A DNA stretch of 35,957 nucleotides from a virus, in IMG/VR virus record IMGVR_UViG_3300025128_000150, positions 1-35,957 of that record; one strand, 5' to 3'. Within the stretch, counting starts at the first letter, position 1. The number at the start of each line of letters is the position of its first letter. Below are positions 15,396 through 24,212 of the stretch, piece after piece. The position numbers and the translations under genes are program-made. The notes under the pieces are model-generated. The model had not been told where the DNA came from and did not search any database. It saw nothing but the letters and a program-made list of their open reading frames with translations.

Positions 15396-16508
15396 TCACT
15401 TTTCTGTAAGACACTTGCTAGTGCTTATATCATGCATCTTTCTAGTAGTCAACGCATAATTAGCACTCGTAAATGTATTTTTCATGTAGGGTTTTACTGA
15501 CTGTGGATTACTGTGTCCTGTAACCGACATGATTTGTCCTATACCGACACCAGACTCTACCATTTCGGTAGTTCCTGTCCTTCGTAAATCCATCAGTCGC
15601 AACTCTTCAGACAGCCCACACTTACGCATGACTGCCCTTCCAGCTTTCGATAGTCTTTCCATACTGTAAGGGTGGTACATGCCATCAACAGGCTTTACAC
15701 GGGGTGCTATGTACCTTTGGAATCCAAAGTCATCGTGCTGTTGTTTTAGCATGGAACACAAGTCATCGCTAATAGGTAGCGTTACCTCTGCCCTACGCTT
15801 ACTTTGTTCAAGAAATAATTTCTGTTGCACAAAGTCCACATTATCCCACTCTAACAGTCGCATGTCACCCAATCGTTGACACCATTCGTATGCCATATGG
15901 ATAATCAAACCAATATTTCTGTAGGCAAAGTCGCTGTAGCACAAGTCCAAGAAGGATTGTATGTCACTCTCCGACCACACAACCTTTCTTTGCACAGGTG
16001 TTTTTCTTTTGACTGTTGCAAATGGGTTACTGTGTGCATGTTCCATGTCCATAGCAAAACGATAGACACGAGAGGCACAGGTACAAACGTGGTTGGCAAA
16101 CTGTACACCTCTCTTGACCCACTCCTCGTAGGCATGCTTGGCCTGCTTAGTCGATATAGTTTGGAAGCGTCTGTCACCCAGACTGTCAAGTAAAACAGAC
16201 AACAAATATCTGTAGTCCTTTCTAGTTTGTTCACGTAACATACTGTAATCATTGGATTTATAATATGCCTCTACAAGCTTTTGTAATGTGTGGCTTTTGT
16301 GCAACACTATAACCTGTGCTTGCTCCTCTCGCCACTCATCAATCTTGCGATTATTCTCTGCGACTATCTTACGCACTTGCTTTATGTCACTGCCGTATTG
16401 CTCACGCTTTACGACACCAGAATCTACCAATTTTTGTGGTGGATTGAATCTGTACTCAACCACACCATACGCAGTAGTCCTAGCTTGTGTATATCTAGGT
16501 AGCTTCAT
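15396..16508 (-). CDS. int: Tyrosine site-specific recombinase (phage integrase)
   Basis: Would catalyse integration and excision through a 3'-phosphotyrosyl link. The N-terminal part holds a SAM-like core-binding region (about residues 75-165). Catalytic residues seen: Arg in CQRLGDMRLLEW, Lys in the beta-hairpin SKRRAEVTLPI, Arg in MDLRRTGTTEM, His in SVTGHSNPQSV, and Tyr in VKPYMKN. The usual His of the HxxR box is Met here. The start is placed at the ATG at 16508 (MKLPRYTQ), sharing one base with the upstream stop (TAATG); an in-frame ATG at 16550 would overlap the neighbour by 43 nt. It sits inside the replication cluster, and no attP or repressor gene is evident in the window. Confidence 0.88.
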   Translation of the reverse strand: MKLPRYTQARTTAYGVVEYRFNPPQKLVDSGVVKREQYGSDIKQVRKIVAENNRKIDEWREEQAQVIVLHKSHTLQKLVEAYYKSNDYSMLREQTRKDYRYLLSVLLDSLGDRRFQTISTKQAKHAYEEWVKRGVQFANHVCTCASRVYRFAMDMEHAHSNPFATVKRKTPVQRKVVWSESDIQSFLDLCYSDFAYRNIGLIIHMAYEWCQRLGDMRLLEWDNVDFVQQKLFLEQSKRRAEVTLPISDDLCSMLKQQHDDFGFQRYIAPRVKPVDGMYHPYSMERLSKAGRAVMRKCGLSEELRLMDLRRTGTTEMVESGVGIGQIMSVTGHSNPQSVKPYMKNTFTSANYALTTRKMHDISTSKCLTEK

Positions 16509-17353
16509 TAGGCAGCCACTAACTCTTTGAACTGAGGCGTAGCTATCCACTTGTTTACTTCAAGTTCTCTGTTGAGCATAGTCACACTCTTGGTGTCACC
16601 TTTAGTGTCCTTAATTGTGAAACCATTGCGTTCATCACCGTAGGTAGAGTAGTTGGTGAAGGCAGAGTAAAGAGCAAAGGCATTGTGACCACGCACACTT
16701 GTCTCTTGTGAGTACAAGGTGTACATCTTCTTAGCCTTAGTCTCAGACATAATCTTCTTAAGCAAAGCTTTAACATCTACATGTTGTGTGTCTGTGTCAG
16801 CCATGTCCTGTAGTCTCTGTGTCTGTTGAAAGAAATCTCGCTCTGCTCGTTCCAGTTTGTAAACAAACCCTGCATTAGTATAGTTAGACGAGTGCCTACT
16901 CTGTACTTTATCATGCTCACCATTTATCTGTCCATTAAAACAGAAGGTATCTATAGTACCCAAGAAACAGTTGGCAGATGTCAAGCTATCTATAGACGTA
17001 AAGGCAATCCATCTAGGATTAATAACTGTCTCCATCTTAGGAGTAGTGATACGTTCAATCCTATGTGGTAGTGTCACATCCATACATGCAAACCCGCCTC
17101 TGCGTCCTGTTCGCCAGTTAAACTTAGCACCTTCTAACTCTTCTGGTTCTAGTATGTCGGTCATCGTAGACCACACTCCATTGAAAAATTCACCATATGG
17201 TGCGACTGGTCTACCAGTACCCACGTAGTCTACAGCTTCGCCTGTGTCTAGTCTTCTGACTAGCTTTTTATGGGGTACTTCAGTACGTTCTACTGATATG
17301 TTAAAGTCAATATCCTTAGGGATATCTAGTTGGTTTGTAAAATCTAAGGGCAT
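16508..17353 (-). CDS. DUF932-like phage protein, 281 aa
   Basis: The pattern GRRGGFACMDVTLPHRIERI, then INPRWIAFTSIDSLTSA, then FCFNGQINGEHDKVQSRHSS resembles the DUF932 (phage/plasmid-like) family, where an early R...C-N-G...RH block is conserved; the match is from memory and moderate. The biochemical role of DUF932 is unknown to me. The ATG at 17353 has a strong AAAGGAGA site and follows a 126-bp gap, so this gene may start its own transcript that continues into the integrase. The first 11 codons coincide with one copy of a 31-bp repeat also found at 18454-18484. Confidence 0.6.
   Translation of the reverse strand: MPLDFTNQLDIPKDIDFNISVERTEVPHKKLVRRLDTGEAVDYVGTGRPVAPYGEFFNGVWSTMTDILEPEELEGAKFNWRTGRRGGFACMDVTLPHRIERITTPKMETVINPRWIAFTSIDSLTSANCFLGTIDTFCFNGQINGEHDKVQSRHSSNYTNAGFVYKLERAERDFFQQTQRLQDMADTDTQHVDVKALLKKIMSETKAKKMYTLYSQETSVRGHNAFALYSAFTNYSTYGDERNGFTIKDTKGDTKSVTMLNRELEVNKWIATPQFKELVAA
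17322..17352. repeat. 31-bp direct repeat, copy A (start of DUF932-like gene)
   Basis: This stretch is 30/31 identical to 18454-18484 in the same orientation. Here it encodes the first residues of the DUF932-like protein (PLDFTNQLDI) on the minus strand. The only difference is G/T at the twelfth base. Because it is the functional 5' end of a gene here, it is more likely the source copy. Confidence 0.85.
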
Positions 17354-22284: not shown

Positions 22285-22494
22285 TTAGGTAGGGTTTCTT
22301 TGTAAAGCAACAAACATAAATCCTAATGTACCAAATGCCATGAGTATGCAAGCAAATACGAATAGGTATACGTCCATTACATTGTACCCAAAGTCAGCGA
22401 CTTTCGTGCTTTCCATTGCTTCGACTAAGTGTAAGCCTACAAAGAAGTAGGCTGTTGATACTAATAAGATTGATAAGTTAGCTATAAGTTTCAT
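22285..22494 (-). CDS. Small membrane protein with two transmembrane segments
   Basis: The 69-aa product has hydrophobic helices at about residues 3-25 (LIANLSILLVSTAYFFVGLH) and 40-63 (VYLFVFACILMAFGTLGFMF), joined by a short polar loop, with a polar end. ATG at 22494 has GGAG upstream. It resembles small early membrane proteins and could be a superinfection-exclusion factor, a holin-like protein or an antiholin; the sequence does not decide. Confidence 0.65.
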   Translation of the reverse strand: MKLIANLSILLVSTAYFFVGLHLVEAMESTKVADFGYNVMDVYLFVFACILMAFGTLGFMFVALQRNPT

Positions 22495-22497
22495 TGG

Positions 22498-22704
22498 TTA
22501 AACTCCGTTTAATATTTCATTGAGTATTGATAATGCTTTATCATTATCATTGTCAAGCTGTTTCTTTTCGTAGTCAGCTTTCCACGTTGGTAGAATACCA
22601 CTACGATAGATAATAGGGGTTGTGTCTTTCTCCTGTACATAGGCAGGCCATGAGCTACGAACATGATACCTACCTATGCATGAGGGTTGCACTCGCTTTG
22701 CCAT
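22498..22704 (-). CDS. Hypothetical protein, 68 aa
   Basis: Not recognised. Basic/aromatic N-terminus (MAKRVQPSCIGRYHVRSSWP) and an acidic helical C-terminus (KKQLDNDNDKALSILNEILN). The start shares one base with the stop of the preceding gene (TAATG). Second gene of the leftward cluster from the control region, hence probably immediate-early. Confidence 0.55.
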   Translation of the reverse strand: MAKRVQPSCIGRYHVRSSWPAYVQEKDTTPIIYRSGILPTWKADYEKKQLDNDNDKALSILNEILNGV

Positions 22705-23249
22705 TAGGCAACCTTTGCAAGTTGTGGTGCTTCAGCTTTCGGTGCTAACGCATCTCGTAGTGCAAGCAACAGTTGCTCACGGCTCACGTTGTGCTTGTCA
22801 CACTTGGCTAGTGCTTGCTCAACAATCTGTTCAGCGGTTAGTCCTACGTCGGACTTGGCTTCAGCCTTGCGTGCTTTCTGCGTAGCCTTCACAAGAGCGT
22901 TCATGTTTGTAAATCCTTTCTCTGAGGATTCAGCAAGCTTGTCGCACTCCGACTTGTTCTCTACGTAGAACAATGCGTCAGCTCGACGTTGCTTTGGAAT
23001 GTTGTGGATACCACAATCTTGCAACCTAGAGGTTGGAATACGCTTACCATCTTGCTCACACTTCAACTCAAACATGAGTTCACCCAAAGCGGTGTCAAAG
23101 GTAGCTGAACGCTTTGCCAAGTGCTTTTCAGCACTACTGAGTACCTTGTACTCTTTGGCAATAACCGAGCCACGACTTTCAAGAGTATTGAAAGCGTTAG
23201 CAAGTTTTTCGGAGAACGATTGAGTTTTTGTTGTTGTTGGGTTTGCCAT
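22704..23249 (-). CDS. First leftward early gene, 181 aa, unknown
   Basis: The first gene left of the divergent control region. ATG at 23249 with AAGGAAAAG upstream. The product is hydrophilic and helical, with a Ser/Thr-rich start, a central stretch DCGIHNIPKQRRADALFYVE, and an Ala/Lys-rich C-terminal helical part (EQIVEQALAKCDKHNVSREQ) ending in low-complexity Ala/Pro. A small helical domain near residues 125-165 could be DNA-binding, but no clear helix-turn-helix is seen. Its place suggests a takeover or regulatory role; this is inference. The codons for KSDVGL carry dyad copy 3. Confidence 0.6.
   Translation of the reverse strand: MANPTTTKTQSFSEKLANAFNTLESRGSVIAKEYKVLSSAEKHLAKRSATFDTALGELMFELKCEQDGKRIPTSRLQDCGIHNIPKQRRADALFYVENKSECDKLAESSEKGFTNMNALVKATQKARKAEAKSDVGLTAEQIVEQALAKCDKHNVSREQLLLALRDALAPKAEAPQLAKVA
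22840..22855. repeat. AGTCC-N6-GGACT dyad, copy 3 (intragenic)
   Basis: Sequence AGTCCTACGTCGGACT. It is within the 181-aa gene and not near a start codon. Its reverse complement differs from the plus-strand sequence of copy 4 by one base. Confidence 0.65.
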
Positions 23250-23271
23250 CTTCTTTTCCTTATGTTGTGTA

Positions 23272-23323
23272 ATTATAAGAGAAACAATATATCTCTCATA
23301 AGTATATGAGATATATTTTTCTC
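23272..23323. promoter_or_regulatory. 45-bp imperfect dyad next to a leftward -10-like box
   Basis: Nested arms GAGAAA/TTTCTC (23279-23284, 23318-23323), ATATAT/ATATAT and CTCATA/TATGAG (23295-23300, 23305-23310) surround the centre AGTA. On the minus strand TATAAT lies at 23277-23272, 23 nt before the first leftward ATG, but no good -35 box is at the right distance. A regulator-dependent promoter/operator is one reading; a rightward hairpin followed by T5 is another. Confidence 0.4.
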
Positions 23324-23351
23324 GTTAATTACTAAAACAACATAAGTAAGA

Positions 23352-23479
23352 GTGGAGCAGTTGTCTCGCACGCTATCTCCTGTGCGTGTCGTTTCACGTG
23401 CGACTGCAAGAAGCATAGCTTCTGAAGTTCATGTGCAAAACTCGTGCGCATGTACGAGGCTTGGTAGGGTATGCTCCGC
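23352..23479 (+). ncRNA. Candidate structured RNA, ~128 nt, closed multi-hairpin
   Basis: An 8-bp closing helix joins GTGGAGCA (23352-23359) and TGCTCCGC (23472-23479). Inside are TCGCACG/CGTGCGA (23366-23372, 23397-23403), which competes with CGCAC/GTGCG; AGAAGC-ATA-GCTTCT (23409-23423); and CTCGTGC-GCAT-GTACGAG (23441-23458). Both imperfect pairs in the closing and last helices are G-U if the plus strand is transcribed but A-C on the other strand, which favours a rightward RNA. No frame codes through it. It does not fit tRNA geometry, and I cannot match it to a named RNA family. No clear promoter is seen just upstream. Confidence 0.4.
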
Positions 23480-23484
23480 CAACA

Positions 23485-23699
23485 GCAACATAGGGTAGTG
23501 TTGCATAAATGTGACTATCTCCGCATGCTTTAGCATGGCAAGTGATGACATAACACTTGTCACCTAGTGCATAACCCCATGTTTACAAGGGTTTGAGCAT
23601 GCATTGGTGAATGAGCAAGCCTCATGTGTGTACACCAGCAACGCAAGCACAGGCATTGCACGCATTATGCGCATACACATGGAGGTGTGGGCGTGCGCC
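23485..23699. repeat. Second series of inverted repeats in the control region
   Basis: Six further hairpins in a row: GCAACA/TGTTGC (23485-23504), CATGC-TTTA-GCATG (23524-23537), CAAGTG/CACTTG (23539-23559), AACCC/GGGTT (23573-23593), TGGTG-A-ATGAG/CTCAT...CACCA (23605-23637), and GGC...GCACGC/GCGTGC-GCC (23652-23699) with ACAC/GTGT inside. They are perfect short stems separated by a few bases. GCATG/CATGC words recur. This may be a continuation of the RNA candidate, a second RNA, or protein-binding DNA such as an origin. Confidence 0.55.
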
Positions 23700-23819
23700 A
23701 GTGGGGGTGGGTACGTATATGTGTATACAGAAGTACACAGATTAGGTTTTTTCACTGTTAACCACAACGACAAGTGACATAGTTGGCCTGCCTGTCATTT
23801 AATATTTTTAATTTAGGGC

Positions 23820-23848
23820 TTGACACAGATATGGATACATGGTATAAT
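23820..23848 (+). promoter_or_regulatory. Strong rightward sigma70 promoter
   Basis: TTGACA (23820-23825), exactly 17 nt, TATAAT (23843-23848): both boxes match the consensus fully. Transcription would begin near 23855 and give a ~136-nt leader before the ATG at 23991. Host housekeeping RNA polymerase should use it; no phage RNA polymerase gene is visible in the window. It drives the rightward gene cluster. Confidence 0.85.
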
Positions 23849-23990: not shown

Positions 23991-24212
23991 ATGGCGAAGA
24001 AATCCGTAAAACTATATACTGACGATGTACTTACAGCTTTTTACGAGGCTATTCGTACTAATACATTAGACCGTCTACATATTCCTCATAGTGATGTATT
24101 CTATGTTCGTGCTGCCGTAGAGGCACACTACGGTAAAAAGTTTACATTAAAGCATGTAGAGGAGGCAATGCGGGCAGAAGGTTGGAAAGAAGGAGAAAGT
24201 AATGCTAAGTAA
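23991..24212 (+). CDS. Hypothetical protein, 73 aa, first rightward gene
   Basis: Starts at ATG 23991 (MAKKSVKLYTDDVLTAFYEA); an in-frame TTG two codons earlier is less likely. No strong ribosome binding site is visible. The product looks like a compact helical domain: residues 8-25 and 35-48 helical, then KKFTLKHVEEAMRAEGWKE, a possible winged-helix or helix-turn-helix-like end. As first gene behind the sigma70 promoter it could be a regulator. No family recognised. Confidence 0.6.
   Translation: MAKKSVKLYTDDVLTAFYEAIRTNTLDRLHIPHSDVFYVRAAVEAHYGKKFTLKHVEEAMRAEGWKEGESNAK

Follow-up and report, generated by a model that had tools for sequence, protein, structure and literature searches.

Gene layout of the divergent control region

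The window, that is, the whole stretch of DNA analysed here, is 35,957 bases long and is a virus record of HMO-2011 type. Its leftward genes encode a family-A DNA polymerase with a DnaJ-type insert, a DnaB-like helicase, a primase-like protein, an integrase and a B12-type ribonucleotide reductase, and its rightward genes are the structural and terminase genes. A tyrosine integrase gene is located at 15396-16550 and, to judge from this gene, the phage may be temperate. Between the two divergent operons lies a hairpin-rich block, 23350-23700, which a preliminary description had put forward as a candidate structured RNA, to be sought as a rightward transcript, or as an origin. The features of the block and its surroundings are as follows.

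22704..23249, minus strand: first leftward gene, 181 aa, function unassigned; 7 perfect hairpins lie inside it, arms 6-7 bp
23259..23346: long AT-rich inverted repeat forming the left border of the block; outer arms 23259-23268 and 23337-23346
23272..23299, minus strand: candidate leftward sigma-70 promoter, 10/12 matches, by consensus match only
23301-23328: second leftward promoter candidate, by consensus match only
23376..23460: 5' domain S1, conserved as TCCTCTGC..TGYCGTTTC..YTGCA[hairpin]GAAGT..AAACTCG..GAGGC
23391..23441: helix closing S1, GTTT (23391-23394) with AAAC (23438-23441); invariant, hence neutral as evidence
23403..23428: 3-bp helix ACT/AGT, then the 6-bp hairpin 23409-23423; compensatory changes in both
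23485..23504: perfect inverted repeat GCAACA/TGTTGC
23524..23537: hairpin CATGC-TTTA-GCATG; 43 different stem-loops at the same site in relatives
23539..23559: hairpin B, CAAGTG-ATGACATAA-CACTTG; loop nearly invariant
23683..23750: conserved core, G-rich GG(T)..GGC..GCCA, G-tract, alternating purine-pyrimidine TACGTATATGTGTATAC, TACACAGATTAGG; probable pac site
23756..23765: TGTTAACCAC box, in most loci 217-222 nt to the right of hairpin B
23820..23848, plus strand: perfect sigma-70 promoter of the rightward operon, TTGACA-17-TATAAT
23991..24212, plus strand: first rightward gene, small conserved protein, function unassigned; used as the synteny anchor

Perfect inverted repeats were counted in the block (351 nt) as non-overlapping repeats with arms of at least 5 and spacers of 3-10, with dinucleotide shuffles as the control. 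There are 7 such repeats compared with 2.9 in the shuffles (P about 0.01), and they contain 38 stem pairs compared with 15.9 (P 0.006). The row of perfect inverted repeats reported before is thus upheld as more than chance, with seven repeats by this count in place of "about ten". The inner hairpins 23409-23423 and 23441-23458 were confirmed. The helix said to enclose them, 23352-23359 with 23472-23479, is present with one G-T pair and was not found as a conserved feature. The block has a G+C content of 0.45-0.49, compared with 0.36 just to its left and 0.28-0.34 to its right. The gene to the left reaches 0.49-0.53 at 22700-22900, however, and because it is equally G+C-rich the block does not stand alone as a G+C island. 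For the window as a whole, perfect hairpins are densest at 22850-23250, within this same gene and just left of the block. Relatives inspected by eye show comparable long hairpins at the site of the AT-rich inverted repeat.

The earlier statement that no protein frame uses the block broadly holds, except that the HMO-2011 record annotates two small overlapping ORFs, one on each strand, where the homologous hairpin block lies (L002 1355-1618 and 1376-1507); these are probably not genes.

Pairing is conserved among relatives

Homologous blocks are present in HMO-2011, CRP-1, CRP-345 and about 100 IMG/VR contigs. Using synteny to the small downstream protein together with the exact hairpin B motif, we gathered 101 usable loci, which are kin, so that counts over them are not independent. 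They share an order of elements: S1, a sequence-variable hairpin, hairpin B, a variable stretch, the G-rich core and TGTTAACCAC. The S1 pattern was located in 93 of the 101 loci, a few being poor alignments. Its 3-bp helix ACT/AGT appears in the compensatory variants GTT/AAC and ATT/AAT. Hairpin B usually has the form CAACTG..CAGTTG, and the window version therefore carries a compensatory change.

Formal pair counts were made on two sets of 15 sequences, in which 93% and 100% of cells were paired and 21 and 28 cells, respectively, were changed on both sides. The covariation score was reached by 0/500 shuffles and slid controls were far lower; since the sets were picked for equal length and all their members are related, these figures are not to be read as probabilities. 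The preliminary description had named compensatory changes and conserved stem positions as its own test, and both were found. Across the relatives, then, it is pairing rather than sequence that is kept in the stems of the block.

When the window and 18 relatives were searched against Rfam, none of the 4227 families, including GOLLD and ROOL, scored above its curated threshold; loose thresholds gave nothing beyond weak, mostly microRNA-type matches, far under threshold. The block stands as a conserved structured element outside known families. A literature search, in which subscription journals were mostly outside coverage, found no description of the hairpin array or of the wider hairpin zone described below.

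Strand tests within the block

RNA stems usually contain roughly a tenth G.U pairs. At six hairpin sites in the 101 loci, we counted 1729 Watson-Crick pairs, 6 G.T and 12 A.C (both as read on the plus strand) and 27 others. These hairpins were chosen by Watson-Crick pairs alone, with G.T and A.C penalised alike, and because the finder favours Watson-Crick pairs the count gives a minimum for the actual G.U rate. In the variable 3-bp helix, 60/60 were Watson-Crick at each pair. It had been noted earlier that the imperfect pairs are G-U only if the plus strand is transcribed; in the aligned relatives, G.T and A.C are both almost absent, and a pointer to plus-strand transcription was not confirmed.

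A second comparison used stems of 8 and 9 pairs with one mismatch. On neither strand of the block was there an excess of G.U over other mismatches. The leftward coding zone provides an internal positive control, since with 9-pair stems there were 129 G.U pairs on the sense (minus) strand and 37 on the other strand, compared with 15 and 14 after shuffling. The scan thus detects an RNA signature in the coding zone and shows none in the block. Folding energies point the same way: for the block, z was -1.9 for one strand and -2.3 for the other, with the minus strand lower in 24/48 loci; for the coding zone it was -4.3 (sense) versus -2.8 (antisense), with sense lower in 35/48 loci. On the right side it was about -0.6.

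Some features of the block do resemble RNA. The internal loop of S1 shows a coupled change from G.A to A.C, and S1 also has conserved unpaired bases; judged from the alignment, this looks like RNA. GNA-type triloops in the block number 39 on the minus strand versus 14 on the plus.

The G-rich core and packaging

The most widely kept sequence is the core at the right edge of the block, which is present at the syntenic place in CRP-2, CRP-207, CRP-9 and CRP-13, in regions without S1 or hairpin B. In CRP-9 and CRP-13 (L224 300-1060 and L225 200-700), S1 and B are replaced, on the left side of the core, by palindromes of the type GTTTAA..TTAAAC. A matching core is found in a distant relative, the Sinorhizobium phage phiM6, at 56-93 of its record (for 56-74, 1 match with 0.00 expected); neither S1 nor hairpin B was found in this phage. 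Position 1 of the phiM6 record is a pac cleavage predicted by PhageTerm (PMC6256558). The phiM6 core is thus about 50 bp from predicted cleavage, and, by analogy with this phage, packaging initiation would be the function most closely anchored to the block.

Contig ends provide a further indication. The ends of four IMG/VR contigs fall in a 7-nt range in the right part of the core, 181-187 nt from hairpin B, and several others start in the core, 25-51 nt before the ACACAGAT box. This clustering is suggestive of a packaging start; the four contigs belong to a single study series, and assembly breaks at G-runs could also produce such ends. From these sequence comparisons we infer that 23683-23750 is probably the pac site. 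It would resemble the pac sites of headful-packaging phages such as phiM6 in being a conserved non-coding core near a predicted cleavage in the syntenic divergent region, and would differ in lying outside the terminase genes and in being flanked by a hairpin array, its pac status being predicted.

Other roles for the region were rejected, a terminator or a tRNA among them. CRP-3 integrates at tRNA-Met and two att primers have been published for it; these map at 2.8-3.7 kb of its record, outside the divergent region, and the window contains no tRNA, which speaks against attP. A fixed physical genome end as sole cause was rejected as well, since near-complete contigs carry the motif at many distances from their ends. 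A comparison of the two ends of each of two contigs showed self-overlaps of 127 and about 248 nt, and from this and the varied distances it follows that fixed ends are not general.

A wider hairpin zone in the early genes

In 210 core-aligned loci, perfect inverted repeats exceed the rate in shuffles by a factor of up to about 10 along roughly 1.8 kb leftward of the core, and the enrichment is still two- to fourfold at 3 kb. To the right, no enrichment was seen beyond about 400 nt. The zone in relatives extends leftward for 2-4 kb through early coding genes, with a density that declines with distance from the core, and in the window dense perfect hairpins occupy 22390-23250 inside coding genes. 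CRP-1 has 14 in the first kilobase and about 6 per kb out to 4 kb, HMO-2011 has 9 in the first, and CRP-3 and phiM6 have little of the zone. The most enriched spacers are of 2-5 nt, not 0-1, which marks the repeats as hairpins rather than palindromic operators or dimer binding sites.

Within the coding zone, the loops favour sense mRNA: GNA by 86 to 18, GNRA by 22 to 6 and UUCG by 6 to 1. In the first leftward gene, hairpins are gained and lost among homologues while the protein is retained. Because stable loops and G.U pairs both favour the sense strand, the early leftward mRNAs of these phages seem, on this sequence evidence, to be selected for hairpins.

As a separate observation, a 30-40 nt AT-rich hairpin sequence, TATCTCTCTCACCCTAAAGGGAGAGATA, is common to a roseophage control region and to the cyanophages P-SSP2 and P-SSP3, whose regions are long, non-coding and hairpin-rich (sites at L004 37-78, L220 1501-1543 and L221 1501-1533).

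Discussion

The hairpin array is real and conserved, is situated in the control region beside the probable pac site and is undescribed in the literature covered by the search. What it does is a matter of weighing several readings. The one we prefer, tentatively and at slightly less than an even chance, is that the divergent control region carries a modular row of short hairpins, directly left of the probable pac core, under constraint at the level of DNA or of both strands. This level is suggested because non-Watson-Crick pairs are nearly absent from the stems and no strand preference is seen; the RNA-like features of S1 and of the GNA loops are the reason why our confidence is set no higher. 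The hairpins would be extruded from the duplex or would form on single strands, or both strands would be constrained, rather than one RNA. The array might then open or mark the region where replication and packaging begin, beside the core that terminase would recognise.

If the block were instead a non-coding RNA of about 350-450 nt, made rightward or from both strands and having its conserved domains in S1 and B, one would understand its covarying nested helices, its conserved loops, the coupled non-canonical change and the z of -2.1 for the fold of the window's plus strand. The stems, however, show no tolerance of G.U and the folding no preference for a strand. Moreover, sigma-70 consensus matching found no rightward promoter upstream of the block, a consistent terminator was not found and the Rfam match is absent, so that we consider such an RNA unlikely. 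Its rightward form, as first proposed, is left unsupported by the lack of a G.U signature on either strand, by the 48 loci in which folding favours neither strand and by the missing upstream promoter. GOLLD, ROOL and other large ornate phage RNAs are likewise large, hairpin-rich, non-coding, phage-borne and covarying, but the block matches no Rfam model, is without a G.U signature and has no defined strand. The block could also be an untranslated leader, the first part of the leftward early transcripts with their many hairpins, expressed from a promoter to its right and serving RNA stability or the binding of a phage protein. The hairpin zone does run unbroken into the leftward genes, and in block and coding zone alike GNA loops are commoner on the minus strand. 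Nevertheless, the leftward promoter candidates sit to the left of the block and the minus-strand G.U excess of the coding zone is missing from it, and we regard a leader of this kind as distinctly unlikely.

Perfect stems of free sequence, different hairpins at one site and hairpin gain and loss in a coding gene are all what template switching during replication (quasi-palindrome correction) would leave behind, with little function. Such a by-product would not be expected to conserve the positions and flanking motifs of the block or to be restricted to one side of the core, and the strand-biased G.U pairs and loops of the coding zone point to selection; we therefore give this origin a small chance. 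Smaller yet is the chance we allow an RNA-primed replication origin of the ColE1 kind, in which a structured pre-primer with a G-rich end would form an R-loop and prime the phage family-A polymerase. A structured stretch is indeed followed by a G-tract, the polymerase is present, no RNA polymerase was recognised among the genes tested and the cumulative GC skew has its minimum at the divergent region. This minimum is confounded by the divergent gene directions, a promoter is lacking, and 12/101 loci (e.g. L013, L015, L047 and L088) have, after GCCA, a C-tract about as long as the G-tract whose place it takes, an argument against an R-loop primer.

In phage N4, the early promoters used by the virion RNA polymerase are likewise small perfect hairpins, with loops of 3 nt. 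This likeness is limited, since the hairpins described here have no sequence in common and are far too numerous.

As a whole, the block appears to be the margin of a hairpin-rich zone extending into the early genes rather than one new RNA. The wider early-mRNA zone was unexpected and is the more surprising part of these results. That coding RNA folds so pervasively in the sense orientation recalls the genome-scale ordered RNA structure of RNA viruses, but here the folding belongs to a DNA phage and covers no more than a few kb of early genes close to the control region. It is possible, and to our minds rather doubtful, that dense, fast-changing hairpins with stable loops, selected on the sense mRNA across about 2-4 kb of early coding sequence and continuing at the DNA or two-strand level into the control region beside the packaging site, represent a new kind of ordered structure in early phage mRNAs.

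In the upper ocean, phages of HMO-2011 type count among the dominant, widely distributed viral groups (PMC9038755), and their control region has so far been annotated as nearly empty. If our reading is right, this region would contain a testable packaging start for these phages, together with a hairpin array that keeps its pairing and not its sequence, and would adjoin a series of early genes with mRNAs under selection for hairpins.
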